Origin: Microglena sp. YARC
Taxonomy: Eukaryota; Chlorophyta; Chlorophyceae; Chlamydomonadales; Chlamydomonadaceae
Direction of reading: 5' to 3'
Length of the DNA: 64,000 nt
NCBI GenBank assembly: GCA_022414725.1
Contig: CM039462.1
Coordinates: 74,771,803 to 74,835,802 of the forward strand
Of this stretch, positions 12,667 to 35,168 are shown in pieces. The notes beneath the pieces are model-generated. The model was given only the letters and a program-made list of their open reading frames with translations. It was not told the DNA's origin and ran no database searches. Each line of letters begins with the position of its first letter. The first letter of the stretch is position 1. The translations under genes and the position numbers were made by a program.

Positions 12667-12727
12667 GAGGGCGGTCATTGAATTTACTGACGACAATGGG
12701 GCCTACGAGGGGAACTAGTGTATACAG
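12667..12727 (+). CDS. AP2 locus, exon d-like (cassette 0, partial)
   Basis: An acceptor (TTCTGCAG) precedes this 61-nt exon and a GTATGT donor follows. In the phase required by exon e it ends in the residues GTSVYR, the start of the second AP2 fold, as do exons d at 20329 and 27869. The upstream part differs from the other d exons, so only the 3' end is clearly homologous. A related acceptor block near 12474 (CTACTGCAGGAGGACAGTC) looks like a duplicated, non-functional copy. Confidence 0.5.
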
Positions 12728-12968
12728 GTATGTAGGTGGTGCGTGTGGTGGAGGGGTTGGAGGGTTGGATCGAGTGTATGGAGAAGCGTTGGGTGTATAC
12801 CAAACTGTTTACACCCTACACCCTTGACCAGAGCACGATGATAGCAATCTATAAAACACTCCAGTGACCAGAATCAATGTTTTTCAGAATCCTTCGAAGA
12901 CAGATTGAATTGTGAACGCGGCCCCTTGAAGGTTGTTGAGTTTTTGACATTTTTCAACCGCACTGCAG

Positions 12969-13110
12969 GGGTGTTGGCTGGCACAAAGCTATGGAAAAAT
13001 GGCGTGTTCAAATTTTGCGCCTCAATGAACGGAACCAAACAACTATTGGCTACCACACTGATGAAGTAGAGGCCGCCCTAGCATATGATGCTGTCGCCAT
13101 TGCTCTAGGG
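12969..13110 (+). CDS. AP2 locus, exon e (cassette 0), AP2 DNA-binding core
   Basis: The exon lies between CACTGCAG and GTAAGT. It encodes the AP2 core: GVGWHK, then KWRVQI on the first strands, then the family motif TDEVEAALAYDAVAIALG in the amphipathic helix. The family pattern is YRGV..W...W.A.I, then EEAA.AYD.AA. Three nearly identical copies of this exon are in the window. This one has one extra G before the donor compared with the copies at 20708 and 28485, which changes its exit phase. It is followed by CT-rich low-complexity sequence. Confidence 0.75.
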
Positions 13111-13139
13111 GTAAGTCCCTCCCCCTTCTCTACCCTCCT

Positions 13140-13157
13140 TGTCCTCCCAATTGAACT

Positions 13158-13188
<31 letters not shown>

Positions 13189-13260
13189 GTCCTCTCTCTC
13201 TATCATCCTCTTCTGCTCTCTCTCTCTCTCTCCCTCCTCCTTGTCCCGCATTGCTCTAGC
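13140..13260 (+). repeat. (CT)n microsatellite after exon e
   Basis: Imperfect CT repeats lie immediately 3' of the exon e donor. Equivalent tracts follow the other two exon e copies (21093-21290, 28857-28960), so the microsatellite is part of the duplicated cassette. Confidence 0.85.
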
Positions 13261-15023: not shown

Positions 15024-15213
15024 AAAAACAGATGGCCTTAATTTCCCGGAGAAAGTGTCAGAGGCCAAGATCAACTGATGCGCGCTGCTCCTCAAGCTGT
15101 TTCAAGACCACGTGACAGGGACAAAGATCGTGGAGATCGTTGAGCAACATCAAAAAGAGAACGGCATTGCAATGAGCGAAGGATGGAAGTCAGCCCTCCT
15201 CAAAAGGCCTGAG
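15024..15213 (+). pseudogene. AP2 locus, exon a (cassette 0/1), frameshifted
   Basis: Homologous to the intact exon at 31704-31899: the start encodes DGLNFPEKVSEAK, the end of the second AP2 fold, after which small insertions break the frame (AAGATCAACTGATGCGCG against AAGCTCACTGATGCGC). The acceptor CTTCCAG and a GTGGGA donor remain. A second partial copy of the same exon lies at 16635-16729 plus 17841-17900, which may have replaced this one. Confidence 0.65.
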
Positions 15214-15654
15214 GTGGGAGACTGGAGGGGGGTTATGGCTTGGATCGGGGTTTGATTTGGTTTTGGGGGTGAAGGGTTTGGCACTGTCTTTTATTTCAAT
15301 TTATGCTGGTGCCAACTATCAGCTGGTGCCAACTCAGCTGGTGCCAACTATCAAAATGTGCGACGCAAGCCTAATTCCAGGACGGTTGCGGAGCATCCGT
15401 CTTGTAGAGCGTAGCTTGGCGCATTAGCAGCCTGTTCAAGGGGGATTTTGTTTTGGGGGTCCGTAAGGAAACATGCATTTCGCACATAGATGACACATGT
15501 AACACACGTTTGTAACAACTTTGTCAAGCCTTTAAATTGTACAGAAAAATTTACGACAAGTCTTTTCCCAACATTCCTACAAACCTGACACATACTCATT
15601 AAGTCATCACCAATACGCATTCCTTGCGTAGCATAAGAAAAGGGTATTATACTT

Positions 15655-15850
15655 CATACTGCGCTGCCTTATCCTCAGCTACCCCACGCTCAGCTACATC
15701 ATCCTCAGCTACCCCACGCTCAGCTAACATCATCTCAGCTACCCCACGCTTCAGCTACCTCATCTTCAGCTACCATATCCTCAGCTACCCTACGCTCAGC
15801 TACCTCATCATTCCTTGCGAAGCATAAGAAAGCTTCAGCTACCTCATCCA
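15655..15850. repeat. CTCAGCTAC tandem repeat
   Basis: Irregular repeats of ATCCTCAGCTACCCCACG, about 24-30 bp each, lie between two copies of CCTTGCGTAGCATAAGAAA-like sequence (15622 and 15811). The related sequence CCTCAGCTACC also occurs in the terminal exon near 35060-35110. Confidence 0.7.
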
Positions 15851-16634
15851 GCGCTGCCTCGTAGCATAATAAAAGGGTTTGCTTGATCATATCACGTCAT
15901 GAAAAATGTGATACTATCAACTGTGATGCCACACGCAAGACGCACGCATACACACAAGTCACACACATGCACGCAAGTCACACACAGACACACACAAACA
16001 CTATAACTACCCTCGTCTTGCCTGTCTCCTGTGTTGGTGCCACCACTTCCGGCATGGCCTCGACCTCAGCCTAAGACATTTCCCTCAGGCAAGGCCTAGC
16101 CATCAACACAGAGGCGAAAAGCGCTGAGGCGGGCGGTCTACTACGGTTAATTTTGCTCATGCCTCATGCCTTATCAACAATTAATCAACCAATCAAGCAC
16201 CAGTTAAACACAGTAACTTCAGGACTTGGACTCTAGATTGTACATGTGTAATGTCTGGCCTTTGGCACTTGCGCCCATGCATGGGTCACTCTCAGATTTC
16301 TGACTAGTGACTTCCACCAGGGGGCTAACCAGAGTTGGACCTGGACTATCCCTGGCTCAACCCAGGTGACAAAGGTGCTACAGAGGGCTCAAATCACTTC
16401 ACTGGCGTCTCAAACGTCGCGACGCAAGGCTCATTTCATTTCCGCAAACTTTCACTCCTTAGCGTCGCACAATAATTTTGGGGCGTTATGGTGAATGTGG
16501 GTGTGGGTGGGGGGTAGAGGGCTTCTTGTTTTGTCTACGTATATGAACTTATATAACTAGAAGTCTTGAGAAGAAAGTTTATTTTCCACATCTACTATAT
16601 GCCATACAAGAGCATACCAACATAATGTTGACTT

Positions 16635-16729
16635 GTGGCCAAGATCACTGATGCCCTGCTCCTCAAGCTGTTCAAGACCACTGACAGGGACACTGTAAAG
16701 GACATAGTTCAGCAGCTTGAAAAATATAA
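16635..16729 (+). CDS. AP2 locus, exon a 5' part (cassette 1), split exon
   Basis: Open sequence homologous to the middle of exon a, encoding KITDALLLKLFKTTDRD and then an acidic helical stretch. It lacks the NFPE-encoding beginning. It ends in AAATATAA followed by GTAAGG, a plausible donor. The missing 3' part of the same exon occurs at 17841-17900, so about 1.1 kb of repeat sequence separates the halves. It may be spliced as two exons or may be dead. Confidence 0.45.
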
Positions 16730-16759
16730 GTAAGGTGATGATTAATAGATCGTGGCAGC

Positions 16760-17465: not shown

Positions 17466-17554
17466 TGTCCTGATATGTCTCTTCTCTTCACCTCTAGTTA
17501 GCCCTAAAAATCCGGGATTTATTGAAGTGCTAAATAGCTCCAGTAGCGCTATTA

Positions 17555-17820
17555 GGGCTAAGCAGCTAAGGCCCCCCCTCCGAACCCTACATTTTAGGGC
17601 TAAGCAGCTAAGGCCCCCCCTCCGAACCCTACATATTAGGGCTAAGCAGCTAAGGCCCCCCCTCCGAACCCTACATATTAGGGCTAAGCAGCTAAGGCCC
17701 CCCCTCTGAACCCTACATATTAGGGCTCAGCAGCTAAGGCCCCCCTCCGAACCCTACAATAGCTCCAGTAGCGCTATTAGGGCTAAGCAGCTAAGACCCC
17801 CCCTCCGAACCCTACATATT
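17555..17820. repeat. 42-bp tandem repeat
   Basis: Six units contain TTAGGGCTAAGCAGCTAAGG, a C run and CCGAACCCTACATA. Four central units have a 42-bp period. Because 42 is a multiple of three, a repeated 14-residue peptide appears in one frame; I treat it as non-coding. Confidence 0.9.
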
Positions 17821-17840
17821 AATTCACTGAATAAAAGATC

Positions 17841-17900
17841 AATGCTATGAGCAAAGAATGGAAGGCCCTCTTGAAGAGGAAGTTGAATCCAATGCCTGAG
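17841..17900 (+). CDS. AP2 locus, exon a 3' part (cassette 1)
   Basis: Encodes NAMSKEWKALLKRKLNPMPE up to a GTGGGA donor, matching the end of the intact exon at 31704-31899 in sequence and phase (exit phase 0). The 5' part lies at 16635-16729. No strong acceptor is visible immediately upstream, so whether it is spliced in is uncertain. Confidence 0.5.
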
Positions 17901-18319
17901 GTGGGAACCAGGAGGGGAGTTATGGCTTGGATTGGGGTTCAATTTGGGTTTGGGTCTGGTTGGTTTGGGGGGGGGGGGGGGATTCTTGTTTTGGCTACAC
18001 ATTGCATCTTCTATAACTATTAGTCTTGAGAAGAAAAACGTTACCAGATTATACCACATAATGTTTATATTGTGACTCACGCCCTGACAAAAATATACGT
18101 GAGACGGTGTGGGGAAGAAGCCCCCTCCCCCCCCCCCCACACACACACACACTTTTCCGTTGAGGGACTAGGGGCTGGCTATATGTGTATGAATGTCACT
18201 CATTGAACGTCACTCACTAGCGTCAACTCCCTGCCAGTATTGCCCCAAGGCTACTGTAGTACTGCAAGGCCACGGATAAGAGTGATTTCACACCTGTGTG
18301 GCCACACCCAATTCTACAG

Positions 18320-18478
18320 GTTCTAGACGTGGATGCTCGGAACCATGGCTACAAATTTGTGTTGTTCAGATCAGACCGCAGCACTACAAGGCCATATCGG
18401 GGCCAAGTCCTACTCAATGCAATGGAGCAAGCCGAGCTACCAGAGAGTCTCCGGGCTGTTTACAAGGATAAGAGACAG
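18320..18478 (+). CDS. AP2 locus, exon b (cassette 1)
   Basis: A 53-codon exon from TTCTACAG to GTAACA, in phase 0 at both ends. It starts VLDVDARNHGYKFVLF and contains RPYRGQVLLN, which I read as the first strand (YRGV-like) of the first AP2 fold, then LPESLRAVYKDKRQ. The following exon c supplies the helix. The copy at 25177-25368 is 11 codons longer, with a different middle and no clear YRG. Confidence is moderate because this AP2 fold is divergent. Confidence 0.7.
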
Positions 18479-19870
18479 GTAACATGATGCTGCTAATCTC
18501 TGGTGTAAGGACTGGATAGGATGATGACACATATGATAGCTTGATGCTGATGAATACTACTAATTGTGATAGTATAGTTACAGAGCAGGTTACACTATTG
18601 TACCCCCCCCCCCACACACACACACACACAAACAGATACGTTCATAAACATTCACTGTTGCTACTGTAAATGCTGACAGATCTTCCCCTTCCTACCGTCC
18701 TCCCCCGTCTCCCATTGCCCCCCCCACACACACACATACAATAACTCCCACCCCAACCCCTCCTCCACGATATATATAGACATACAGGGATTTTCGCGTA
18801 GTCCTCGCGAACTTTTGGTGTCACATTGGGGCGGGGGGCAGGGGGTGTCATGGACAATTGTACTGTACTGCCAAGTTCAATTTTTATCAGCGCGAATTCC
18901 TTCTCAGAGCGAATTCAACTATGATCGCTCATCATATTCTTAGCGCTTATTCATTATGAGCGATTGCAATTGTTTCGCTGTCATGGTCTGCTTTTCGGAC
19001 CATGACTCAAACAAAAAACTCAATCCTTCGTCGAGTTGTTCAATTTTTTGCCATATAAAGCAAATATGGCGCTAGGGTTCATAATGTTCAACCTCTTGCT
19101 TTTTGATGCCACCATGCTACCGATAAAACAAACAGATTTTAAATGGCAGACGAGCAGCCAATCAGCAGGCAAGGCGAGCTCTTTAGAACAATGAGGGCAG
19201 GACACATGCAGGACTCAGCATAGACGTTTAGCAGATGCTGCTGACCCATCCCACCGGCGCCAGACCCAGCGCAAAGCCTATGCTACGAGGGGGGCTGCCA
19301 TGCCTGCGACTGAGCGCCACGCCGCTAACCAGAGCAGGCGCAAAGCCTATGCTGCAGGGCAGGCTGAAATCTGTTGATGCGAATCGTGCGATAGCGAGTG
19401 CAGAAGGGGTGTGCGTTTCTGTGTCTGTGGGCAAAGGGGGGGAGGTAAGGGAGCGCATAGCGAGGGTGGAGATGGCTGGGTGGGGGTGTTTTTTGGCGGT
19501 AGGAGAGTGTCTGTAGAAAGAGAGTGTGTGTCAAGGGGGTGGGGATGGGGGGGCAGGAAGATTTAGGGCTCAGTAGGGATCATTTAGGGTCTGGGGGGGT
19601 GGGTGGGGTGGGGTGGGGGGGGGTATAGAAATTGGGTAGGGAAGGGAAGGGGGCAACTTTTGCAGGCGAAGTCATGAAGCTGGTTGTTTGAATGTCTGGC
19701 CATCCAGCTGGGTGTGATGGTTTTGAGTGACACGCCGACCATGATGTTTTAATCATATATGTATAAGCTTGTGAGGACAGAACCCCCCCCTGGATCTTCA
19801 TTGCCTCACACTTCTACAATACTACCTGTTTTACATGATCATTATCAATTTTGACATTTCTGTTGTGCAG

Positions 19871-19926
19871 AGAATCGCCACAAATAACTTCGAGACTGCT
19901 GAGGAAGCCGCCAAGGCGGTTGACAG
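19871..19926 (+). CDS. AP2 locus, exon c (cassette 1)
   Basis: A 56-nt exon from TTGTGCAG to GTGGGT. It encodes RIATNNFETAEEAAKAVDR, the helix of the first AP2 fold (family pattern F.T.EEAA.A.DR). Entry is phase 0 and exit phase 2, matching exon d. The copy at 27549-27604 differs by one residue at the start. Confidence 0.8.
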
Positions 19927-20042
19927 GTGGGTGCCTGCACTGCTCTATTTTTCTGCTACGGCTCAAAGGTCAGGGATGATATGCCGGCTAGAAGCTGCTA
20001 CACGTAGCCCCAAATAAAAACAGCGGAGTTGACTCGGGTGTT

Positions 20043-20077
20043 CCCATGCAATGGTGTGTGTGTCCTCCCTCCCCTGT

Positions 20078-20158
<81 letters not shown>
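20043..20158 (+). repeat. (GT)n plus 64-nt G tract
   Basis: A GT repeat runs into an almost uninterrupted G run at 20094-20157, broken only by one T at 20124. It lies in the 402-nt intron between exons c and d. The second cassette has the same arrangement at 27652-27696. Strong G-quadruplex potential is expected in the transcript. Confidence 0.95.
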
Positions 20159-20328
20159 CTGCCTAGAACGCTGCTTCATGTAGCCCAAAATAAAAATAGC
20201 TGTGCTGACTCGTTTGTTGACATGCAATGCTGTGTGTCCCCCCTCCCCCCTCCCCTTCCAGCGCCTTCCACCCCCTTCCCCTCCTGCCACCACTCCCAAC
20301 CACCACCCTGACTCCCTGCCCCTGCTAG

Positions 20329-20478
20329 GTTGTCCTACAAGATTGGGCGACTCGGCTCAATCAACTTCCCTCTCTCAGAGGAGGAGAGGGCTGGGCTGGA
20401 CAGCATCGGGATGGAGGAGCTCATCGCAAGCTTCAAGCAGGCTACCCACAAGAACATGCAGGGAACTAGTGTTTACAG
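20329..20478 (+). CDS. AP2 locus, exon d (cassette 1)
   Basis: A 150-nt exon from CCTGCTAG to GTATGG. It begins by completing an Arg codon from exon c, then LSYKIGRLGSINFP closes the first AP2 fold. The linker LSEEERAGLDSIGMEELIAS follows, and GTSVYR opens the second fold. Both phases are 2. The copy at 27869-28018 has the same length with about ten substitutions, mostly conservative, which argues for purifying selection. Confidence 0.8.
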
Positions 20479-20707
20479 GTATGGATGGTGTTTGTATGTG
20501 GTGGATGGTTGGATGGAGCATATGGGGGAGTGTTGGGAGGATATGAAACTGTGTACACCATACACCTTACACCCTTGACCAGAGCACGATGATAGAAACC
20601 TTCAAAACACTCCAGTGACTAGATTAGTTTGTTTCATAATCCTTTGAAGATGGATTGAGTTGTGGATCCCTCGAAGTTGAGGTGTTGACATTTTAACCAC
20701 ACTGCAG

Positions 20708-20848
20708 GGGTGTTTGCTGGATCAAAGCTTGTGAGAGATGGGAAGTACAGATTGGGCGCCTCAATGAACGGGCCTCCACATTTATTGGCCGCTATGCTGA
20801 TGAAGTAGAGGCCGCTCTAGCATATGATGCCGCCGCCATTGCTCTGGG
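20708..20848 (+). CDS. AP2 locus, exon e (cassette 1), AP2 DNA-binding core
   Basis: The exon lies between CACTGCAG and GTAAGT and is 141 nt with entry and exit phase 2. It encodes GVCWIKACERWEVQIGRLNE, then FIGRYADEVEAALAYDAAA, a clear second AP2 fold with the WxVQI strand and the EEAA-like helix. The final residues GKxDHLNFPE come from exon a. Confidence 0.85.
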
Positions 20849-20984
20849 GTAAGTACCCCCCCCCCCCCCCCCCCCTTCACCTTCATGCTCCAAATCACAG
20901 TAAGGCAAAAGGACCATGTGGGGATTCTTACAACAGCTATAAGCTGGGTAGATCACCGCTTCCAGCAACCAGGTTAACTGTGTG

Positions 20985-21075
20985 TGCCTAGATGAACAAA
21001 GTCCAACATATATCTGCCCCTGCTCTGATGAAGTAGAGGTCGCCCTGGCATACATGCTGCTGCCGCCATCCTCTC
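20985..21075 (+). pseudogene. Decayed extra copy of AP2 exon e
   Basis: Downstream of exon e, TGATGAAGTAGAGGTCGCCC and GCATACATGCTGCTGCCGCC match the second half of exon e. It lacks the WxVQI-encoding part and has lost the Tyr-Asp codons. No donor lies at the right place, because a CT repeat follows. The same relic lies after the next exon e (28741-28840), so it predates the cassette duplication. Confidence 0.7.
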
Positions 21076-21092
21076 CCCTTCCCTCCCACCGT

Positions 21093-21120
21093 CCCTCTCT
21101 CTCTCTCTCCTCTCTCCTCT

Positions 21121-21161
<41 letters not shown>

Positions 21162-21290
21162 CCCCTCCCCCTTCCCCCTTTCCCCTTCCCCTCTCTCCTC
21201 TCTCACCCTCTCCCTCTCCCCCCTCTCTCCCTCTCTCCCTTCCCCCTCTCTCTCTCTCTCCTCTCTCCCCTCCCCACTTTCTCCCTATTT
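21093..21290 (+). repeat. (CT)n microsatellite and pyrimidine tract
   Basis: Imperfect CT and CCCTT repeats after the exon e relic. The tract is shared with the cassettes before and after. Confidence 0.9.
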
Positions 21291-21739
21291 CTCCCCTCCT
21301 TGTCCCCCATTGCTCTAGGTTGACTCCCTCCCCCACCCCCACCCCACCCCCACCCCTTTCTCTCCACCCTCCTCGTCATACATTGAGGTCCCTACCATAT
21401 TGTACTGTCTCCATGTCCTAGATTCAAACGCATAATATATATTAATTCATACTGCTACCGCCAAAGACACGAGTAGCCTGAAGGCAGAACCCATGCAAGA
21501 ATACATTCAAAAACCCGAGGGGGGGGGGGGGGGGGGGGAGAGGGGAGAGGTGTAAGTTCTCAGACAGCATCATGGGAGGTTGTTGTTCTCACCCTATACC
21601 CCCAGAGGCCTCATACCTCAACACCCAGACAGTAACCCATAGTGAAAGGGTCCATCAGCATGAGCTCGCCAAGGCTTTCCAACAAACACATCAAAATATA
21701 ACAATATCAAGTTGGGGTTGGACAGCATAGGTGTATTAA

Positions 21740-22020
21740 CTAACCCTTTGTGAGTGTGTGTGTGTGGTTGGGGGGGGGGGGGCAGGGGGCTTTGGCAGGA
21801 AGAGGTCAGTGGTGTGTGAGTGTGTGTGTGTTGGTGGTGGTGGGGGGGGGGAGGGACACACACACACAAACAGGTGGGTGTAACTAACCCTTTGTGAGTG
21901 TGTGTGGTTGGGTGGGGGGGGCAAGAGGCTTGGCAGGAAGAGGTCAGCGGTGTGTGAGGTGTGTGTGTGGTGTGTGGGGGGGGGGGGGGGGCGGGGGGGG
22001 GGGCGGGGGGACACAAATAG
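21740..22020. repeat. GT/poly-G repeat with AACTAACCCTTT linkers
   Basis: Two and a half units of about 140 bp: GTGTAACTAACCCTTTG, a GT run, a G run, then GGCTTGGCAGGAAGAGGTCA. The next cassette has a similar unit at 29395-29550. Confidence 0.8.
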
Positions 22021-22029
22021 GTGTAAACT

Positions 22030-23400
22030 AACCCTTTTAATGGATATCTGGGCCAATGTAACTATTGTTGTCCTACTATTTTGTTCATTACTATTTTGTT
22101 TTTTCTGTTGGCCGTAGCTGTCTGAAGCTTATACAGCACTCCAGTTGCTAGTCTCCAGTACCCATGCAGAAATCCATACTTAAGCTCGAGGGGGCAAGAA
22201 AAAAGCTGCCGTACCGCATTCTTCGCTTTGGATAGAGCGTTATATCCTCAAACTTTTAAAAACAAAAGTTTTTTGGGGCCAAAATAAAGTTTTACTAGGA
22301 TGTTAGAGGGGTCCAAAGTTTTTTTTCACACAAAGCGGCCCAAATCGTAACTCCGAGATAAATCACGCCTGGGCAACCTTACGGAAGATGTAAGAGCTAG
22401 GGGTGCTCAAAAGTAATAAGGCTTCTATAGTTTATATTTTCAAACCCCTAGCAATTGATTAAATGTTAAGCATACCACGCCATTATACTTGTCTATGGCT
22501 AATGTTGCTGACCGTTTGGTAGCGGCTCTTGTTGACTGCACATATGTATGCCTCTTCTTTTGCTCGCTACGCGGGGACCACCAACTTTTCTGCCATTTTC
22601 ATTCTTGGCATAAAAGTTTTATCAATCATTTTTTTTTTTTTTATACTTCTGTAAATTTGTTTAAACCCACCCCTTCACGTCCCACAGTCTATTGCTGCTG
22701 AAAGGCGTTTATTCCGAGGCCCAAACATTTTAAAAGCTTGGCCCTGCAGATGTTACAGCACATACCCCCTCCACACACACACACACTTTGTGACAAGTCA
22801 CACACAATGACACCACCAACCAGAAAGTGGTAAGGCACAACTGAGAACACACGAGAGAATAACCTACCCCCACCTATCATGAAAAAAACAGTGGCCAAGA
22901 AAAATTAAACAGCGGTCCTGTATTGTTTCCCAGATTTAAAAGTTGTCTTTTAAACCCTAAAAAACTAACACAACCCCTAGTTTACAGCTCACTCACATTC
23001 ATGCCAGCATCCACCCACCCAAGCTAGATATAGGGCTCTCCTATCCAGACCTGGAAGCTCTTACCCTGGGGTCTAAGTGACTAGGAGATGGAGCAGTTCC
23101 AAGCCCATACAATTGTGGTTTAGTTACTTATGCTCGCGTGGCTGGTTACTTTCTTAGCACCCCTAGAGCATAACTGGAATGCCTCGCGCGAAACGATCTT
23201 TCGACAATGACCCCCATTTTGGGGGGGGTGAGGTAGGTGAGGTAATCGGGTTTAGGAGGGGGGGGGGGGGGGGGGGCCTTTTCAAAAACTTTATTTTTCC
23301 CCTCCTTTTACATGTATGAAACTTCCACAATTCCAACTCCCATCTGAATCGGACACCATATTGAACATGCGGCCCAAAATCTGTCTTTCTGCCCCCCCCC
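22030..23400. other. No gene recognised (presumed e-to-a intron)
   Basis: Unique and low-complexity sequence, including a CA repeat (22775), poly-G (23258-23277) and poly-C (23393-23404). No exon-like segment with matching splice phase is visible. Confidence 0.5.
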
Positions 23401-24380: not shown

Positions 24381-24385
<5 letters not shown>

Positions 24386-24584
24386 GGAGGGTTGGAAGAC
24401 CCCCCCCGGAAGTTGGGAGTGGGCTTGGCTTGGGCAACACTGGCCTGCCAATGATAATGTAATGTAATGTGGTGTATATGCCCCCAACCAAGATGTTTCA
24501 ACCTGTGAAAATGACCTTGAGTTAACTGGCAGCGTTATAGACATGTATGTGTACATCATATCATTATATGTAGGTTCGGAGGGG

Positions 24585-24611
24585 TGTGTTGTGTGTGTGT
24601 GTGTTGTGTGT

Positions 24612-24658
<47 letters not shown>

Positions 24659-24660
24659 CT
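24585..24660 (+). repeat. (GT)n plus G tract
   Basis: A GT repeat is followed by about 32 G residues within the a-to-b intron. The next cassette has only a G tract at the matching place (32434-32448). Confidence 0.95.
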
Positions 24661-25176: not shown

Positions 25177-25368
25177 GTTCTAGACTTGTCCGGCAGGAGA
25201 GCTCAAGTGAATGCTCAGAAACATGGCTACAACTTCTTGAAGTGCACATCAGTCTGTAAGGGTAAAAAGTGTGTGAGGCCGTTTCTGGGCTTTGTCCTAG
25301 TCAGCGCTAAGGAGCAAGCTGAGCTACCGGAGAGTTTCCGGGCTGGTGCTTCCAAGGAGAAAAGACAG
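25177..25368 (+). CDS. AP2 locus, exon b (cassette 2)
   Basis: A 64-codon exon from TCCACAG to GTAACA, in phase 0 at both ends. It begins VLDLSGRRAQVNAQKHGYN and ends AELPESFRAGASKEKRQ, matching exon b at 18320 at both ends. The middle (KCTSVCKGKKCVRPFLGF) differs in length and sequence, so the first AP2 strand is altered. The donor and the last 22 nt of the exon are duplicated downstream (see 25369-25525). Confidence 0.65.
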
Positions 25369-25525
25369 GTAACATGATGCATGATGGTAATCTCTGGTGC
25401 ATGATGGTAATCTCTGGTGCATGATGGTAATCTCTGGTGCATGATGGTAATCTCTGGTGCATGATGGTAATCTCTGGTGCATGATGGTAATCTCTGGTGC
25501 TTCCAAGGAGAAAAGACAGGTAACA
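25369..25525 (+). repeat. 20-bp tandem repeat with duplicated splice donor
   Basis: Six tandem copies of CATGATGGTAATCTCTGGTG follow the exon b donor. After them GGTGCTTCCAAGGAGAAAAG and ACAGGTAACATGATG reappear, an exact copy of the exon b end and its donor. Use of the second donor (exon end 25519) would add 151 nt, shift the frame and meet a stop at once. Confidence 0.85.
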
Positions 25526-25929
25526 TGATGCATGCTGGTAATCTGTGGTGTTAAGACTGGATAGGATGATGGCAAATCTGATAGCTTGATGCTGCTGATT
25601 ACTACTAAGTGCGATACTGTTGAGTGTTCCGACTTGTATATTTGTGTATACCGGTAAATATAATTTGATGCATGATGTGCTTTACTGATTAATTTACTGG
25701 TGCAGTGCCCATGTGGCTGTTGGCCAGACTTGTTTTGGGGTGTGTTAGTTATATAACAGGTTACACACTTGTCCCCTCCACCCCCCCGTCAACACTCATA
25801 CTTATTTGTGTATAAATATATGTATTTGATACATGATGGGATGTATGATTACATTACTAGTGCAGTGCACGTGTGGCCGGTGGCCAAACTTGTTTTGGGG
25901 TGGGTAAGTTACAGAGCACGTAACACCTT

Positions 25930-26130
25930 TGCCCCCCACCCCCCCACCCACACACACCACCCCCTTCCACGCACACACACACACACCACTGCACCCGGCC
26001 CCATCCCCTCCCTCGACACACATACAATCAGAACAAATTCCTGCTGCAACTGAACATTTCTTACGGATCTACCCCTCCCTACTGTCCTCCCCCCTCTCCC
26101 CCCTCCCTCCCATCACTCCATCCCCCCCCC

Positions 26131-26169
<39 letters not shown>

Positions 26170-26315
26170 CACTCCACCTGGCCCCATCCCCTCCCTCGAC
26201 ACACATACAATCAGAACAAATTCCTGCTGCCTGCAACTGAACATTTCTTACGGATCTCCCCCTCCCTACTGTCCTCCCCCCTCTCCCCCCCTCCCTCCAT
26301 CACTCCATCCCCCCC

Positions 26316-26357
<42 letters not shown>

Positions 26358-26600
26358 ACCCCCTTCCACGCACACACACACACACGCCACTCCACCTGGC
26401 CCCATCCCCTCCCTCGACACACATACAATCAGAACAAATTCCTGCTGCAACTGAACATTTCTTACTGATCTCCCCCTCCCTACTGTCCTCCCCCTCTCCC
26501 CCCCTCCCTCCCATCACTCCATCCCCCCCCCCCCCCCCACACACACACACACACACACACACACCGCACCCCCCATCCCTTTCCCCCACTCCCTCGCACC
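25930..26600. repeat. Tandem block of CA repeats, C runs and a unique spacer
   Basis: Three copies of CGACACACATACAATCAGAA, then CTGCTGCAACTGAACATTTC, then pyrimidine tract, C run and (CA)n, roughly 200-220 bp apart (about 26015, 26197, 26417). It lies in the b-to-c intron. The pyrimidine-rich sequence continues to about 26790. Confidence 0.85.
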
Positions 26601-27548
26601 CCAACCCCTCCTCCCCACTCCCCCATGCACCCACAAACACACAGATATAACCCTACTTATCCATCCTCCCCCCCACTCCTTATCATCCTCCCCCATCCCT
26701 CCCCTACCCCAGCTTCCCTCCCCCCTCCCCTCCTCCCTCCCATCCACCCCCTCTCCCTCTCCCTCCCATCCTTTCCCTTCCTCCCTCCCTCACCTCCGAA
26801 CCCACAAACACACACGCACCACACTACTTCTCCCTACCTCTTCCCCGCCACTTCAGCTGTGGGGTTTGCTCATGCCTGAATATGAACGTGAAAAATAGCA
26901 ACCACAACTCGCGGCCGTTTGCACATATTTCCGCCCAGCTAGCTGAGAACCCCGGACTTTTGCAATCACTAAGCTACTTATGGGCAGCTATCAAATTGTT
27001 CATTGCACGCAGTTACCCAGTCGGGTGTGCAAGCAGTTGATTTGACCAGCAGGGGCCTTCATTCAGCCACTTTTGTCAGTCTCTCGCTATAGCATTGCGC
27101 TCAGTGATAGGATTATTGGTAAAAAGAAAAGAGCACGAGACCTTAAGAGCATTGCAAGGGGGAGAGGGCACAGCCAGACTGAACGGCCATGGAAGTTTCA
27201 AAAATGTAAAACAATTTGCGATTACACCACCAACTACGAAATCAACCACAGCAAAGGCAATGCCATGGCAGGGCGAGATGGCAATTGAAGAGCGTATGCC
27301 AGATACTGATTAAGGAAACGTTTGTAGGCGGATAAATGCAAGTGATTTTTCTAATTTACAGCCGGCCTGTCGGATGTGACGGTTCGGAGTGACACGACGA
27401 CCAAGATGCTTTGAATCATATAGATATATGAGATTGTGAGGACAGTTGTCCCCAGGGATATTCACCCAAAGTGCCTCATACTTAGTCAATTCTATTTCTA
27501 CCCAATCTGCATGATTATTTGATCATTTTTGCAATTTCTGTCGCGCAG

Positions 27549-27604
27549 ACAATCGCCACAAATAACTTTGAGACTGCTGAGGAAGCTGCCAAGGCGGTGG
27601 ACAG
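27549..27604 (+). CDS. AP2 locus, exon c (cassette 2)
   Basis: A 56-nt exon from CGCGCAG to GTGGGT, encoding TIATNNFETAEEAAKAVDR. Only one residue differs from the copy at 19871, while several changes are silent (AACTTC to AACTTT, GCCGCC to GCTGCC), as expected under protein-level selection. The upstream intron also aligns with cassette 1 (GAGTGACACG and TGTGAGGACAG). Confidence 0.8.
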
Positions 27605-27651
27605 GTGGGTGCCTGCAATGCTCTTCTTTCCTGCTACAGCTCAATGGGTGT

Positions 27652-27655
27652 GAGT

Positions 27656-27686
<31 letters not shown>

Positions 27687-27697
27687 GGGGGGGGGGT
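27652..27697 (+). repeat. (GT)n plus G tract
   Basis: Equivalent to the longer tract at 20079-20158 in cassette 1, but with only about 28 G residues. It sits at the same place in the c-to-d intron. Confidence 0.95.
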
Positions 27698-27868
27698 CTG
27701 CCTAGAAGCTGCTTCATGTAGCCCAAAATAAAAATAGCTGTGCTGGCTCGTTTGTTGACATGCAATGCTGTGTGTCCCCCCCTCCCCCCTCCCCTTCCAG
27801 CGCCTTCCACCCCCTTCCCCTCCTGCCACCACTCCCAACCACCACCCTGACTCCCTTGTCCCTGCTAG

Positions 27869-28018
27869 GGTGTCGTACAAGCTCGGGCGACTCAGCTCCA
27901 TCAACTTCCCTCTGTCAGAGGAGGAGAGGGCAGAGCTGGACAGCATCAGCATGGAGGAGCTCATTGCAAGCTTCAGGCAGGCTGGCCACAATAACAGGCG
28001 GGGAACTAGTGTTTACAG
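27869..28018 (+). CDS. AP2 locus, exon d (cassette 2)
   Basis: A 150-nt exon from CCTGCTAG to GTATGG. It encodes VSYKLGRLSSINFPLSEEE, then ELDSISMEELIASFRQAG and GTSVYR. It has the same phases and length as the exon at 20329. It closes the first AP2 fold and opens the second. Confidence 0.8.
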
Positions 28019-28214
28019 GTATGGAGGTGTTGTATGTGGTGGATAGGTTGGATGGAGCATATGGGGGAGTGTTGGGTGGATACCAAACTGTGTACACCCT
28101 ACACCTTACACCCTTGACCAGAGCACGATGATTGCAGCCTTCAAAACAATCCAGTGACCAGAATCAGTGTGTTTCAGGATTCTGTGAAGATGGATTGAGT
28201 TGTGGATCCCTCGA

Positions 28215-28484
28215 AGTTTGTTGAGGTGTTGTCATTTCAACCACATTTCAACCGCATTTCAACAATATGTTGTCATTTCAACCACATTCCAACCGCATTT
28301 CAACCATGTGTTGTCATTTCAACCACATTCCAACTGCAATTTCATTTCAACCACATGTCAACCGCATTTTAGCCACGTGTTGTCATTTCAACCACCTGTC
28401 AACCGCATTTCAGCCACATGTTGTCATTTCAACCACATTTCAACCGCATTTCAGCCACATGTTGTCATTTCAACCACACTGTAG
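28215..28484 (+). repeat. TTGTCATTTCAACCACA repeat at the exon e acceptor
   Basis: About nine short units of TTGTCATTTCAACCACATT, TCAACCGCATTTCA and GCCACATG run up to the acceptor CACTGTAG of exon e. Cassette 1 has a single copy (GTTGACATTTTAACCACACT) at the same place. The repeat is an expansion of the pyrimidine tract and probable branch-site region. Confidence 0.85.
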
Positions 28485-28619
28485 GGGTGTTTGCTGGATC
28501 AAAGCTTGTGAGAGATGGGAAGTTCAGATTGGGCGCCTCAATGAACGAACATTTATTGGCCGCTACGCTGATGAAGTAGAGGCCGCCCTAGCATATGATG
28601 CCGCCGCCATTGCTCTGGG
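28485..28619 (+). CDS. AP2 locus, exon e (cassette 2), AP2 DNA-binding core
   Basis: A 135-nt exon from CACTGTAG to GTAAGT, phase 2 in and out. It encodes GVCWIKACERWEVQIGRLNE and TFIGRYADEVEAALAYDAAA. It is two residues shorter than the exon at 20708, with the loss in the turn between strands (LNERASTF against LNERTF); loop length is variable in AP2 folds. It joins in frame to the intact exon a at 31704. Confidence 0.85.
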
Positions 28620-28740
28620 GTAAGTACCTCCCCCCTTTCCTCTTCATGCTCCAAATCACAAAAGGCAAAGGACCATGTAGGGATTCTTTAAACGGCTAGA
28701 AGCTGGTCAGATCACCGCTTCCAACAACCAGGTTGACCGT

Positions 28741-28840
28741 GTGTGCCTCAATGAACAAAATCCAACATGCATCTGCCCCTACACTGATGAAGTAGAGGCC
28801 TCCCTAGCATACATGCTGCTGCCGCCATCGCTCCCCCTTC
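28741..28840 (+). pseudogene. Decayed extra copy of AP2 exon e
   Basis: Contains CTCAATGAACAAAATCCAAC, TGATGAAGTAGAGGCCTCCC and GCATACATGCTGCTGCCGCC, the same damaged form as at 20985. It is followed by a (CT)n tract to about 28960 and then TTGCTCTGGGGTGACTCC, the exon end without a functional donor. Confidence 0.7.
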
Positions 28841-28856
28841 CCTCCACCCTCCCTTC

Positions 28857-28868
28857 TTTCTCTCTCTC

Positions 28869-28940
<72 letters not shown>

Positions 28941-28960
28941 TCCCTCTCTCTCTCTCCCTC
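28857..28960 (+). repeat. (CT)n microsatellite
   Basis: About 100 bp of CT repeats splitting the exon e relic, as in the other cassettes. Confidence 0.95.
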
Positions 28961-29579
28961 TCTCCATTTCTCTCCTCTTTATCCCCCATTGCTCTGGGGT
29001 GACTCCCTCCCCCAATCCTCCCCCCCTCTCCACCCTCATTGTCCTTCAGTGAAGCCCCCACCACCTTGTAGTGTACTAGATTCAAACACACAAGAGGACA
29101 TTAATTATAACTGCTACCGCGAAAGACAGAGAGTAGCCTTAAGGCTGAAGCCATGTAAAAATACTTTCAAAACCCGAGGGGGGGGGGGGGGGGCAAGAAT
29201 AAAGGTCTCATACCGCATCAAGGGAGGTTGTTGGTTTCACTCTATACCCCCATTCACCCACGTTGAGGCCTCATACCTCGACACCCAGGCATTTATACAT
29301 AGTAAAATAGGGGTCCATTAACATCCGCTCATCAAGACTTTTCCAACCATGCAACCAAAATATAACAATATCAAGTTGGGGTTGGGACAGAATAGGTGTA
29401 ACTAACCCTTTATGAGTGTGTGTGTGTGTGGTTGGGTGGGGGGGTCAGGGGCTTGGCAGGAAGAGGTCAGTGGGGTGTGTGTGTGAGAGTGTGTTGGGGG
29501 GGGGGGGGAGGGGGGGGGGGGGGGACATACAAATAGGTGTAACTAACCCTTTAAAACTGTATATCCGGGGCCAATGTAA

Positions 29580-30865
29580 CTATTATTTCCAAGGGGGGGC
29601 AACTTAAAACCAAAATGACCCCTTCATAAAACCTTGTAGATATCATTGAGAGGATGAATAATCCGGTCTTATTTCTTAATTTGGCCGAGTACAAAAAAGT
29701 GCCGGTCCTCCAAAGTTTGGGGCCGCGGGGTGGGGGGGGTAAGGAAAAATCTGACATTTTCAAAAAGAATTGTACTTTTCAGCAGCCTTTCCAGGGGGCC
29801 CTTAGGAAGTTTTTTCATATACCTATGTCGGAAGTTTTTGTAATCTGCCTTACCCCCCCCCCCCCCCCCCCAAAGGCCCATATCTCCTCCAGAAATTAGA
29901 ATTTGGGGGGTCAAAGTAGGGTCTACAGTGATCTCCTTGACGAGCTCTATCCATTTATGGTCTTACATTTGGATTTGATCAAAGTTTGACAATATTGTCA
30001 AGCACACCCTTTCCTGATCCTGATCCTGAGCTGAGCTACCTAGTGTTGGTGTTTGAGAATTTGAAGGGGGTGTTAAGCCTAAGTCGCATGCCTAAGTACC
30101 CTCCTTATACCCAAGAAGTTTGTGGAGGAAAGATTGAGTTTCTGGTTTGACCCAACCTTCACACTTGGTGTACTTAGAACCTGTGGAGGTCACTACTCAA
30201 GCACTACCACGACACTTCTTCTCATTCTCGAAAAAAAGCGCAGAGTCGGAATGCTCTCGTCGAACGAATTTCAAGGGTATGCTTAACTTCGTCAGATTCC
30301 GTCTGGTGAGTAAGTTACGAAGATATTTCCGAAACCAGCTCGACCCCTGTACGAGGATCTGCCAACCTGGCAGGTGCCTCGACTTGGATCTAGAGGATCA
30401 CGCCTCCATATTTACTCGCTGTCGGAAATAAGGGTGGATTCGGAAAGATCTCGCCGAGCTTGTGTCATAGGTCTGCTTAATTATATCAGAGACCGAGTAC
30501 TGAGGAAGTTTTGGCCTCTAACAGTTTTCACAAGAGGAAATTTCTGCAAGCCGTCGGACCCCCCCCCCCCCCCCCCCCTATTTTTGAGGGGGTCGATATC
30601 TACCCCACCCCGACACTTTTTTCGACTTTTTTCGATGGTTCCGGGGCTTACGATCCCTTCCGGCCCCGATTCCGACATGCGGTACATGAGCAACTTCCTG
30701 AGGGCCCCCCGCCTTTCAGGCACTTTTTTTACAGCCCTCAGAATGACATGGGAGTGGAACTGGGGTGTTCCCCTACTAAGTACCAATCCATTTATGCTAT
30801 TGGGGTAGGGATCCACCCCATATTATGCCCAGGGCAGAGGGGGGGGGGGGGGGGGGGGGGTCTAG

Positions 30866-30905
<40 letters not shown>

Positions 30906-31350
30906 CGTTTTTTTCGTTCCAATAGTGCCTTGTGCTATTTGATGTTATTTGATGGACCCACAATCCAAGGGCACTACCTGCGACAAGTGCTTTGCGGCAA
31001 CCACGGAAACTTAGAGCGCCATCAGAATTCCCTAAACCCTGATTCCCTAAACCCTACCCCCCCCCCCCCCCCCCAAGCCCCACCAAACTATGTAACATTG
31101 GTGATGATGATTTTCTATGCTTCAAACATTCCTTATGGTCTCGAGACCAACCTCAATGGATAGGCCTTTGAAAACACTGTACAATAAGCCTAATTAGACA
31201 CCATAACACTAAGTGGTGGGTGAGATAGTGGCTGTACAGTGGGTTCCGGAGCCGGGAGGGGGGGGGGGGGTTTGCAGAAGGGTGCCTCAGCACTTTTTCG
31301 TGATGGGGTCTAGCACTTTTTTTTTGCCCCCCCCCTGATTATTTCCTACT
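29580..31350 (+). repeat. Long dispersed repeat, direct copy
   Basis: At least four blocks here recur in inverted orientation at 54540-55560: the GGGGGGGCAACTT end near 29595, CCAAAGTTTGGGGCCGCGGG (29712), a block with GAATGACATGGGAGTGGAAC and CCCAGGGCAGAGGGG (30741-30840), and a block with TCTCGAGACCAACCTCAATG (31139) and ACACCATAACACTAAGTG (31199). Poly-G/C runs mark the block joints in both copies. No transposase or reverse transcriptase is recognisable, so its class is unknown. Confidence 0.65.
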
Positions 31351-31703
31351 ATTTTGGTTCCTCTATTTCATTTTTTCTGTTGGCTGTTGCTAGTCTCCAG
31401 CACTCCAGTGCTAGTCTCCAGTACCCATGCAGAAATCCATACTTCAGCCTGCTTCAAATTAAAATTAAATTCAAAGAAATTCAAAGAAACCTTTATTGTG
31501 TGGAGATACCTCGATTGTTCTTTTGAGGTGAGCAACAGAACCTTTCATCCTATCATTTCCTTTTAAGCCTACCAAGGTACCAATTCAATGCAAGCCACCT
31601 TCACGCATCCAGGATTGTTTGCGCTTTGCTGGTTTCCAGTTCGTAGAGTGTTCGTATAGTCAGCCCTTCCTGATACACAGACAAACACATATTACGCATC
31701 CAG

Positions 31704-31899
31704 GAAAATAGATCATCTCAATTTTCCTGAGAAACTGTCGGAGGCCAAGCTCACTGATGCGCTGCTCCTCAAGCTGTTCAAGACCACTGACAGGGAAAAG
31801 GTCGTGGAGATGGTTGAGCAACATCAAAAGGAGAAGGGCAATGCAATGAGCGAAGAGTGGAAGGCCCTCCTCAACAGGAAGTTGAATACAATGCCTGAG
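31704..31899 (+). CDS. AP2 locus, exon a (cassette 3), intact
   Basis: A 196-nt exon from GCATCCAG to GTGGGA. Its first nucleotide completes the Gly codon left by exon e, then KIDHLNFPEKLSEAK ends the second AP2 fold. A charged, probably helical segment follows (LFKTTDREKVVEMVEQHQKE), then MSEEWKALLNRKLNTMPE. It is the only undamaged exon a in the window. Exit phase 0 fits both exon b and the terminal exon at 34380. Confidence 0.8.
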
Positions 31900-32433
31900 G
31901 TGGGAGAATTGATGGGGTAATGGCTTGGATTGGGTTTGGGTTGTGTGTGTGGGGGGGGTGGGGGTGGGGGTGGGGGGGGGGGGCGCTTCCTGTTTTGGCT
32001 ACTTAAAGCATCTTCTATAAATGTAAGTCTTCAGAATAAAAGTAATTCCCATTTCCGCTATGCATACCAGAGTATACCTCACATCATGTTTTTGTATTGA
32101 GCCTAACGCCCTAGCAAAAGTACAAGTGAGACGGCGTGAGAGTGTAATAATAAAAAAATGAATAAATAAACTTCGACTGTTATGATTCGTATACCTATAT
32201 TTAAACTTGGTTGATTATGTGAGGAGGGTTGGAAGACCCCCCCGGAAGTTGGGGAGTGGGCTTGTATTGAGCCAACACTGGCCTGCCAATGACAATGTGA
32301 TGTGATGTATATGCCCCCCACCAACATGTCTCAACTTGTGAAAAAGAACCTGAGTTAATTGGCAGCGTTATGGATATGTATATGTATATCATATCATATA
32401 TATAGGGTCCGGAGGGTTGGGGGGTTGGGGGGG

Positions 32434-32530
32434 GGGGGGGGGGGGGGGAGTTGAGCGCTAATAGCGCTAGATAGTGCTTGAAGCGATTCCGTAATATTAG
32501 GGCTAGTTAGAGGTGAAGAGAAGAAAAATA
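32434..32530. repeat. G tract and inverted copy of the 17.47-17.56 kb segment
   Basis: After a G run, the segment with GCGCTAATAGCGCTAGATAG and CTAGTTAGAGGTGAAGAGAA is a diverged inverse of 17475-17560 (TTCTCTTCACCTCTAGTTAG and AGCTCCAGTAGCGCTATTAG), suggesting a small dispersed element. Confidence 0.6.
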
Positions 32531-34370
32531 TTGCTTGTCGGCGTGGCCTAACGAAACAGAACGCGACGGTACTAGTAGGGTGAGGGTACAAGTACCAGGT
32601 CCGGCGGGAGATACTGGTGATCAGTACGAATTATAGCTTGGGGCCAGGCAGTACAGGTGACTAGCCCTCTGTGAATCTCTTAGAAGCCTCCCAACGTATC
32701 GCTCGTTAATTTTTGTATTGCATGACTCAGTAACTTTCATTTGCAAATGGCAACCGTTTACAATCCACCCAAGTCTTGGTACGTGAAAGATGGAAAACAG
32801 ACATCCATGAATTTGCAGCAGGCGCCTCGTTAGATAATGGCACGACTGAATAGCGCCAGGGGAGCTTGGAAGAAGCTCTTAAGGCCTGAGATGCAAGGCT
32901 TTCCTCTAGGCTCAGTAGGGAAGATGTGGGAATGTGCAATTTACATCCGCACCTACTCGTGAAGCTCCCCCTCCAGAACAGGTTCATTGCGCCTACTTAA
33001 TTAGCTTGTTTTATATATATATATATATATAGATATATATATATATATATACCAAGATAGACGCCTTCGTCATGGTTGATAGTCATTTATCGTGAGTGAT
33101 TTGACTTTCTTCAGACCTTCATGGCCATTCCGTCTCCCTGCGCACTCTCGCCCTTGCACAGCTGACTGTGCAAGAAAAAAAAGCTTTAGGTATGCAGCTT
33201 AACAATTGGGCAGGTCTGGTGTTCTCAGCGGGTTCGGAATCTGAGCAAGCGTTCACAAGTTGTTGATAAGTCGAATTCGCAGCCTGGTCCAAGACCCCCT
33301 TGTCTTTCTACACAATCAAAGCCCGCAGCCGGAGTGAAGGTGGTGAGGTAGGGAGAAGGGGAGTATGTGTGTGTGTATGCGGTGGTAAGGGGAAGGGAGG
33401 GGGGGGAGGGGATGCAAGGGGGAGAAACAGAGTTTGTATCAAGGGGGTGGGGATGGGGAGCAGGAAGATTTAGGGAGAAGGAGGGGGTTATGTAGGTACT
33501 ACTAGGGTAGCCCGTGTGGCCGTTGGCCACCCTTACCTGCCCCCCCTCCCCACCCCACCCCCTTCCTTCTTCGCCCCTCCCTCTGTTCTCCCCCCCAAGC
33601 CCCACCCCCCACACACCTCACCCTCCCCCCCTGCTCCACCCTCCCTGTGTCCTCCTTCCTGCCCCCTTCCTCTTTTCTGTCTTCTATCCTCCTTTACTTC
33701 CCCTTCACCCTCCCTCCATCTCTCCTCCTTCTCTGTTTTCTCTTTTCTTTCCTCCTTGACTTTCTCTTGACCCTACCTCCATCTCTCCCTTTCCCACTGT
33801 CCCATCTCCTACCCTTTCCCCCCCCCCTGCACCACTATAAACACACCTTATCCACTACCTGTTCTGAACGTTCGCGATACCAACCCCGCTGAGAAAACTG
33901 GCCCTGCGCAATCGCAAAGCTGCATGCCCGAAGCTTGTCTTCGTGCACATTTACCCAGCCAGGCCTGCAGGATGTGGTGTTGACCTTGACCTTGCCTGGC
34001 TGTCAGCTGCGCACCGCTGTGGGTCAGCATCAACGGGTAAACGTCGATACTGGTTAGCATGGTTCCTTTCCTTGTCGTTCTGGCAAATTCGCTTTGCACG
34101 CTGCCTGAGAGTGTTTAAGAGTTAAGACCCTCCTAGGGTTTAGGATATAAGGTTTAGGGCTTAGGGTATAGGAGATCTGGCTTGTGGAGGGTATTAAAAT
34201 ACGTTGCTGCTGCATTATCATGTAGGCCCCAAGAAGCAAAAGGTTGTGGTTCCATGGGAAGCGAAGTGAAACGCGAGAGCGCGCAGCTTGACGAAATGGC
34301 CATGAGGATCTGAATAAAGTCAATTAAATGAGCTGAACTGAAAAAACTCTTATACCAACATTTCCCAACC
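32530..34370. other. No exon recognised before the terminal exon
   Basis: Contains a TA microsatellite (33013-33051) and a pyrimidine-rich stretch (33535-33835). I find no further b, c, d or e exon here, so the third cassette appears to consist of exon a only. Confidence 0.5.
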
Positions 34371-34379
34371 TGTGAATAG

Positions 34380-35168
34380 GACCCTGAGTGCACTCGCGAC
34401 AAGCTAGGTAGAAAAAGGAAGAAGCCTGCGCCAAGGGGGTCGAAGAAGAAAGCAAACAGAAGTGAGAGTGGTGAGGAAGACATTGAGGAGGAGGAGGCGC
34501 TGCCCATGCACGATGATGACAATGTGGATTATGTGGACAATGATGTCGGTGATGAGCAAGCTATCCATGAGGATGAGGGCACTGACCATGCGCATGGCCA
34601 GGGTCCAGCTGCTGCCAGCAATCATCATGATGGTCCAGTGCCCAGGAAGAGGAGAAGGAGGGGTGAAGGGATGAGTGGGGAAGTGGATGCCGAGCTCCCT
34701 ACGGAAGTACAGGCTGGGAGTAGGGGGCCTAGTGGATTTGATGTAGTTAAGCAGGAGCCGGACTGTGTGGAGGAAGCTGTTGGGGCTCTCTCTGGCCTCG
34801 TGTTCCCTGCCCAAGCATCCATGTTCCCTGCTCGGGCTCCGGGTTTATCTTCCCTAGAGCTTGCCTCAGTCCTCCCTACTAGCATGGACACCCAGCTTGG
34901 CCCTAGCCTGCTGGACACAGCGGCGTTTGAGAGCATTAGTGGATGGATCCCACTGGAGTGTGGTGAAAGGGTGACTGAGGATGAGTATCATGCTCAGCCA
35001 CCGCAACCTCAGCCACCAATGCATCAGCTTCCACACGCCCAACTACCTCATCCTGCGCGACCTCTTCCTCAGCTACCTTATCCTCAGCTACCCCAAGATC
35101 AGCTACCTCAAGAAGTGATCAAACCGGATCCTGATTCATGTTTACTGGGATGGATAACCTTTGAATGA
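34380..35168 (+). CDS. Terminal exon of the AP2 locus: basic patch, acidic and Pro/Gln-rich tail
   Basis: The exon starts after TGTGAATAG, in phase 0 as required by exon a. It encodes about 262 residues: DPECTRDKLGRKRKKPAPRG and SKKK (bipartite-like nuclear localisation signal), an acidic stretch (SGEEDIEEEEALPMHDDDN), a second basic patch PRKRRRR near residue 86, a Ser/Ala/Pro-rich middle, and a tail of repeated QLPHAQLPHP and PQLPYPQLPQDQLPQ before FE and TGA. An acidic and Pro/Gln-rich C-terminus with nuclear signals is typical of transcription activators, an inference from composition. TGTAA, the usual chlorophyte polyadenylation signal, occurs several times after 35410. An independent gene starting at ATG 34506 is the alternative. 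Confidence 0.65.
   Translation, partial: DPECTRDKLGRKRKKPAPRGSKKKANRSESGEEDIEEEEALPMHDDDNVDYVDNDVGDEQAIHEDEGTDHAHGQGPAAASNHHDGPVPRKRRRRGEGMSGEVDAELPTEVQAGSRGPSGFDVVKQEPDCVEEAVGALSGLVFPAQASMFPARAPGLSSLELASVLPTSMDTQLGPSLLDTAAFESISGWIPLECGERVTEDEYHAQPPQPQPPMHQLPHAQLPHPARPLPQLPYPQLPQDQLPQEVIKPDPDSCLLGWITFE

Follow-up and report, generated by a model that had tools for sequence, protein, structure and literature searches.

A damaged multi-AP2 gene with a probable internal exon-block duplication, and variable residues at predicted DNA-contact positions in its family, in the green alga Microglena sp. YARC

Introduction

Does the array of AP2-domain exons at positions 12,667 to 35,168 of a 64,000-nucleotide stretch of Microglena sp. 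YARC (contig CM039462.1) represent one gene or a cluster of genes? The stretch, referred to here as the window, corresponds to C1:74771803-74835802 of a 568-Mb genome in 2390 contigs. It had been proposed from its letters (the original prediction) that cassettes of exons a-b-c-d-e, recurring about every 7.7 kb, belong to a single transcript that grew by duplication of exons together with introns. The analysis reported here makes it likely that the locus is one damaged member of a multi-AP2 gene family, with a single internal duplication of the block b-c-d-e-a, and that the predicted DNA-contacting residues of the family are selected to change. One gene with one duplication is preferred because the locus matches the plan of its paralogs, start-e-a-b-c-d-e-a-terminal, apart from a single additional b-c-d-e-a block. 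A single putative transcription unit is favoured because a start exon lies at the 5' end, a terminal exon lies at the 3' end, and a processed copy elsewhere in the genome records splicing of e to a and of a to the terminal exon.

The normal gene would comprise nine exons (start, e, a, b, c, d, e, a and terminal), and its product would consist of an AP2 fold, an AP2-like fold, a second AP2 fold and a basic/acidic tail. Closure of each AP2 fold would depend on splicing of e to the following a. At this locus the b-c-d-e-a block would have been duplicated once inside the gene, and later damage would have broken e0, a0 and a2 (numbered as in the list below), leaving open the part from b2 to the terminal exon and short joins that skip the lesions. 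Across the family, selection would favour change at residues touching DNA and hold the scaffold.

Ground plan of the family

The survey of paralogs, made by tblastn with exon peptides, covered 20 stretches of 10 kb taken from six places. The order e-a-b-c-d-e-a-terminal was found in at least five paralog genes; e and a lay upstream of b at nine of ten paralog b loci, with a alone at the tenth. Apart from the window, five paralog loci have a start exon MGPKRGTSVYR, or a close variant, 5' of the first e; at three others this exon was altered or had AAG for ATG. The paralog at C2:55.2233-55.2139 Mb has GT-AG at all internal borders and an open frame from ATG to terminal exon. Two EukProt entries from the same species agree with parts of this plan: P0001, which in pieces compared by eye is the plus-strand gene at C2:55.20 Mb, reads e-a-b-c-d-e-a-terminal, and P0002 begins MGPKRGTSVYR and lacks c-d-e-a after b.

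At C2:9098504-9102163 (L009), b (with an insertion), c, d, e, a and the beginning of the terminal exon are contiguous and intronless, with stops. This locus was taken to be a processed copy because the exons are fused without introns, and splicing of e to a and of a to the terminal exon can be read from it. The usual sequence 5' of b is retained unspliced over about 160 bases. The pseudogene stands head to head with an ENY2 gene. This ENY2 is 100% identical to a EukProt protein, followed by unnamed transcripts at 66-70% and by named proteins of Edaphochlamys (55%) and Chlamydomonas species (67-71%), which makes a chlorophycean green alga the probable source.

Colinearity with C2:52.4778-52.4425 Mb extends over 11.0-36.0 kb of the window, main-path pieces being about 72-90% identical, and among the six places compared the intron before a0 aligns over 1 kb only with this paralog. 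In the colinear paralog b-c-d is single and e-a is present three times, the e-a copies being 98-99% identical and 7.7 kb apart (C2:52.4465-52.4670 Mb, L021-L023). Since the exit phase of a is 0 and the entry phase of e is 2, these e-a repeats cannot be read through. Block duplication in the AP2 family thus occurs with or without a phase match.

The family count is a lower bound of 162 exon matches at E<=10, with 150 of 609 candidates scored. Among the 150 matches listed, 105 lie on C2 at 51.9-57.3 Mb and 45 elsewhere, 7 of the latter in the window. Smaller groups were seen at C5:45.16-45.19, C3:49.80-49.81, C4:20.18-20.19, C2:76.78-76.81 and C2:14.24 Mb.

Exon map and damage at the locus

Exons were mapped by tblastn with exon peptides against the window and by direct reading of the DNA. 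The order from 5' to 3' is start, e0, a0 (decayed), a second split a, b1-c1-d1-e1, a2, b2-c2-d2-e2, a3 and terminal, as follows.

12696-12727, + strand: start exon s0 (MGPTRGTSVYR), exit in phase 2; ATG in phase with a GT donor; same exon type in five paralog loci and EukProt P0002
12969-13110, + strand: exon e0, encoding the beta sheet and the helix of AP2 fold 1; phase shifted by an extra base ahead of the GT donor
15024-15213, + strand: exon a0, decayed; in-frame TGA and, relative to a' in the colinear paralog, five frameshifting indels that sum to +6
~15650-15874, + strand: relic that lies between the first a copies and is similar to the terminal exon's 3' repeat (PQLPHAQLP)
16638-16730, + strand: second a copy, 5'-truncated, residues 14-44 (tblastn)
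17835-17905, + strand: 3' part of the second a copy, residues 44-67 (tblastn)
18320-18478, + strand: exon b1, strands of the diverged, putatively AP2-like fold
19871-19926, + strand: exon c1
20329-20478, + strand: exon d1, end of the putatively AP2-like fold, linker and GTSVYR start of the next AP2 fold
20708-20848, + strand: exon e1
20988-21053, + strand: partial e duplicate (tblastn)
23862-24056, + strand: exon a2, in-frame TGA at 24016-24018, one base short (195 against 196)
25177-25368, + strand: exon b2, entered by splicing at CAG|GTTCTAGAC
27549-27604, + strand: exon c2
27869-28018, + strand: exon d2
28485-28619, + strand: exon e2
28747-28812, + strand: partial e duplicate (tblastn)
31704-31899, + strand: exon a3, intact; the AP2 fold of d2-e2 is completed by its NFP start
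34380-35168, + strand: terminal exon with basic motifs, an acidic stretch, a P/Q/L repeat and a TGA stop
18320-31899, + strand: duplicated block b-c-d-e-a in two copies (18320-24056 and 25177-31899)

Exons a to e, their GT-AG borders and the spacing were recovered as originally proposed, with e-to-e distances of 7.74 and 7.78 kb, and so were the phases and GT-AG borders of the junctions 20848>23862, 28619>31704 and 31899>34380. The phases are 2 for e>a, 0 for a>b, 0 for b>c, 2 for c>d, 2 for d>e and 0 for a3>terminal. The e exons end in AYDAAAIALG and the a exons begin K(T/I)DHLNFP, the end of the AP2 domain; the e-to-a junction is considered structural because the two sequences join into that end. 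Some elements of the original prediction had to be replaced. It had seen no exon with a start codon, and one lies at the 5' end of the array and recurs in paralogs and a public gene model; its first cassette, taken as a full a-b-c-d-e, is actually start and e, then a decayed a, then the split second a. It had also seen no terminal exon between cassettes, and the relic near 15.7 kb resembles the 3' repeat of one. The stretch 15503-15705, adjoining this relic, is also present between a' and b in paralogs, and a partial second a upstream of b is likewise found in several of them. The insertion splitting the second a copy carries, at 17550-17858, a 42-base tandem repeat (TATTAGGGCTAAGCAGCTAAGG...), pieces of which recur at C2:52.472 Mb.

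The phase coherence on which the original prediction relied is correct for the exons as described and is broken in the sequence at e0, a0 and a2. A full join with the homologous e0 border (followed by GG, not GT) meets its first stop at residue 76 and has 20 in all; the e0 GT border gives 19, beginning at residue 64, and slightly different a borders again give 20. The e0 donor offset occurs in 2 of 46 e exons, and one common pattern in 42 of the 46. Two of the three a exons, a0 and a2, contain a TGA. A five-fold protein is therefore unreadable in the assembly, since e0, a0 and a2 all carry disruptions. The join b2-c2-d2-e2-a3-terminal is open over 505 residues with GT-AG at each internal border. 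A single transcript grown by joint duplication of exons and introns is still the better reading, although in the assembly a working giant gene is blocked by these lesions. Phase match, offered as the main argument for one gene, is weak evidence by itself because duplication of a whole b-to-a block keeps phase automatically, and it is no proof of use because the colinear paralog at C2:52.44-52.48 Mb duplicated a phase-incoherent block.

The repeat between the cassettes extends through introns as well as exons, far above chance: 20130-20701 and 27670-28245 are 91.6% identical, and 20683-21893 and 28460-29552 are 76% identical, introns included in both cases. Over c, d, e and the open part of a, the nonsynonymous rate (dN) between cassettes is 0.056 and the synonymous rate (dS) 0.163; the differences in c and e are synonymous only, where aligned, and b1 against b2 gave dN/dS 1.02. 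Exon b of the window is 77% alike between cassettes against 90% for its flanks (ungapped, with many gap columns). This lower likeness is not general, since across 12 loci the identities were 81.0% for exon b, 83.3% upstream and 64.5% downstream. In the c-d intron, the tract 20162-20329 is 98.8% identical (ungapped) to 27693-27869, and the adjoining exon d 87.8%; the intron tract looks like a gene-conversion tract.

Identity of the encoded folds

Scores of PF00847 over e were 25-29 bits in the window peptides, below the cut-off of 33.3; P0001 scored 46.8 bits, above it, and P0002 32.1, below it. The cut-off was passed by 15 of 38 matches from the same genome, some of them other AP2 genes. In phmmer alignments to WRI1, TEM1, AtERF1 and ERF096, three strands are followed by a helix, ending in the NFP encoded by exon a, and the best solved relative by sequence of an s/d-e-a query was WRI1 (PDB 7wq5, E 4e-11). 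For the putatively AP2-like middle fold, the three best PDB hits of a b-c-d profile were ATERF1 and ERF096 (E 0.002-0.005, over the helix part), Pfam AP2 was detected in one of nine members, and comparison of the b-c-d and e-a profiles gave 35 columns at E 0.0013 with a probability of 18%. Residues 235-278 of P0001 appear as strand-strand-strand-helix in a low-confidence AlphaFold model (two-sequence alignment, mean pLDDT 34.6), which was not used.

WRI1, an AP2-type member of AP2/ERF with two AP2 domains, resembles the algal proteins in having AP2 folds in series. The algal family differs from it in having three predicted folds per gene, a diverged middle fold, a fold split across e|a, a basic/acidic repeat tail and more than 100 exon matches in one genome. 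The likeness to AtERF1 (1gcc) and ERF096 (5wx9) lies in the layout of strands and helix in the alignment. An extract of PMC7593309 gives the DNA contacts of ERF96 as R16, R19, R21, W23, R31, R39 and W41 and describes the residues of its AP2/ERF domain as highly conserved in group IX, whereas the matching positions vary in the algal family: the Arg and Trp of contacts R19, R21, W23, R31, R39 and W41 are not kept, and e positions 3, 5, 8, 16, 23 and 25 are variable in 46 exons. Family members would bind DNA through their AP2 beta sheets.

Probable selection at predicted contact positions

The e set consisted of 46 distinct open exons, 27 from 31 short loci and 19 from earlier stretches; two other AP2 genes, one exon with a stop and one locus without a match were left out. 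Because AP2 or family similarity was the basis of their collection, the set may lack extreme variants. ERF96 contacts were placed on e by phmmer alignment, in which R21 falls on site 5 or 6. Codon site models gave log-likelihoods of -2811.7 for M1a and -2719.1 for M2a (twice the difference, 2dl, 185; omega2 5.0), with sites 3, 5, 8, 12, 14, 16, 23 and 28 in the selected class at P>=0.99. The highest 2dl in 20 simulations under M1a was 8.7. Other trees (third positions, star) returned the same eight sites plus 25, and the star tree added 7 and 21. With R21 at site 5, five of the six ERF96 contacts are among the 8 selected sites of 47 (p 2e-4).

When each class of sites was given its own synonymous rate, omega at the ERF96 contact positions was 2.12 (2dl 8.75 against omega 1), compared with 2.37 for the eight selected sites (post hoc), 0.76 for the rest of the sheet part and 0.26 for the helix. 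In 23 disjoint closest pairs, the ratio of nonsynonymous to synonymous differences (pN/pS) was 1.27 at contacts, 0.77 in other sheet positions and 0.25 in the helix (contacts against sheet p 0.02, against helix 6e-10). For exon b (21 kept of 24 hits) 2dl was 80, and ten sites had P>0.9, including the alternating 19, 21, 23 and 36, 38, 40, for which omega was 2.81 (post hoc). Exon d (28 of 30 hits) had omega 0.19, and exon a (35 of 47 hits) omega 0.42 with a weak class (2dl 12.4).

Extracts of PMC2604467 and PMC2794550 describe positive selection that changes binding specificity at contact residues in poly-zinc-finger genes and PRDM9. The likeness of the algal family to KRAB poly-zinc-finger genes and PRDM9, as far as those extracts go, is contact-residue selection on a conserved scaffold, together with expansion of a DNA-binding family in the poly-zinc-finger case. 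A constant scaffold with a changing DNA face, as in those systems, points to a DNA-recognition role under target-change pressure, and such pressure may be what drives the contact variation.

Weighing of the explanations

Several observations count against a damaged single gene with one duplication and selected contact residues. On the structural side, P0001 and P0002 may be automatic predictions, the processed copy is silent on a-to-b splicing because the sequence 5' of b is unspliced, and part of the lesions could be sequencing errors. On the side of selection, the codon site models were run with our own code. Neutral simulations with hot codons produced 2dl of 2-41 (x2) and 99-155 (x4) in 6 runs each, so the raw M2a test overstates and part of the 185 is possibly uneven mutation rate. 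Synonymous change is itself higher at contact codons (pS 0.27 against 0.14-0.17), and the pairwise pN/pS at contacts is just 1.27. Contact position 25 varies yet falls outside the selected class on the main tree (P 0.006), and with R21 at site 6 the overlap drops to four of six contacts (p 0.005). Gene conversion among paralogs is also likely.

It is unlikely that the locus is instead a working gene, its lesions being assembly errors or skipped and its product a protein of one AP2 fold or slightly more, with the cassettes as possible alternatives. Splicing of s0 to e1, e2, d1 or d2, followed by a3 and the terminal exon, keeps phase, and all four joins are open (s0-e1-a3-terminal, 385 residues; s0-e2-a3-terminal, 383; s0-d1-e1-a3-terminal, 435; s0-d2-e2-a3-terminal, 433); the purely synonymous change in c and e also speaks for function. 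Against this, a0 carries five separate frameshifting indels, and all paths found from the start exon to b run through the broken e0 and a0, because b enters in phase 0 and follows a.

Neutral drift, or shuffling by gene conversion in a largely dead family, is similarly improbable as the source of the contact variation. Several paralogs are damaged, and both the raised synonymous change at contact codons and the ability of hot neutral codons to inflate the test fit such an origin. Within the same family, however, the helix and exon d have omegas of 0.19-0.26, the variable positions alternate along strands and coincide with five or four of the six ERF96 contacts, and omega stays above 1 with the local synonymous rate.

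A row of separate genes is a poor candidate. In that reading an ATG located 54 bases ahead of the b border (position 25123 in cassette 2) would open each b-c-d-e-a(-terminal) gene, and start-e-a further upstream would be part of another gene, whose terminal exon survives as the ~15.7 kb relic. The ATG and open frame MAADTSDFTPVWPHPIPQ before b2, the same ATG in the processed copy with its unspliced sequence 5' of b, and the relic between a0 and b1 would suit it. Against it, 11 of 25 b loci, b1 among them, lack the ATG frame or have it shifted or stopped (our reading), and the b acceptor is kept in most loci even where the preceding sequence differs. The 18 codons before b are not coding-like (13 loci; pN/pS 0.69 in frame and 0.55 in another frame). 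The accepted border is where P0001 and P0002 splice a to b, and e and a precede b in the paralogs as given above. The ATG upstream of b, suggested as a true start by the retrocopy, was ruled out by the 11 loci without an open ATG frame.

Wider comparison

Land-plant AP2/ERF proteins are known for conserved contact residues and stable targets. A large algal AP2 family that changes its contact residues would, if true, add a second DNA-binding fold to the zinc finger as a means of fast re-targeting, and the drivers of such arsenals would become testable in a unicellular organism of the plant lineage. Among the open-licence papers listed on AP2 with expansion or with positive or diversifying selection, none was seen to describe this family. 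We tentatively suggest, as a speculation more doubtful than probable, that these genes form an AP2-based counterpart of KRAB zinc-finger genes or of PRDM9: a clustered and expanding set, with contact residues re-targeted, possibly against transposons or integrated viruses, and with modules gained by phase-symmetric duplication of exon blocks inside genes. The fold is another one, the host is a green alga and the family is without a known repressor domain, so the relation is one of analogy at most and not of membership. The locus itself illustrates module gain in which whole exon blocks duplicate within a gene, in or out of phase.

Other features of the window

An Rfam scan of the window returned no match at the gathering threshold. 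At 60606-61735, open frames resemble a retroelement RNase H by eye and have no Pfam match at E 0.05. Upstream of the locus, tandem repeat arrays with units of about 61 and 74 bases occupy 8015-8626.

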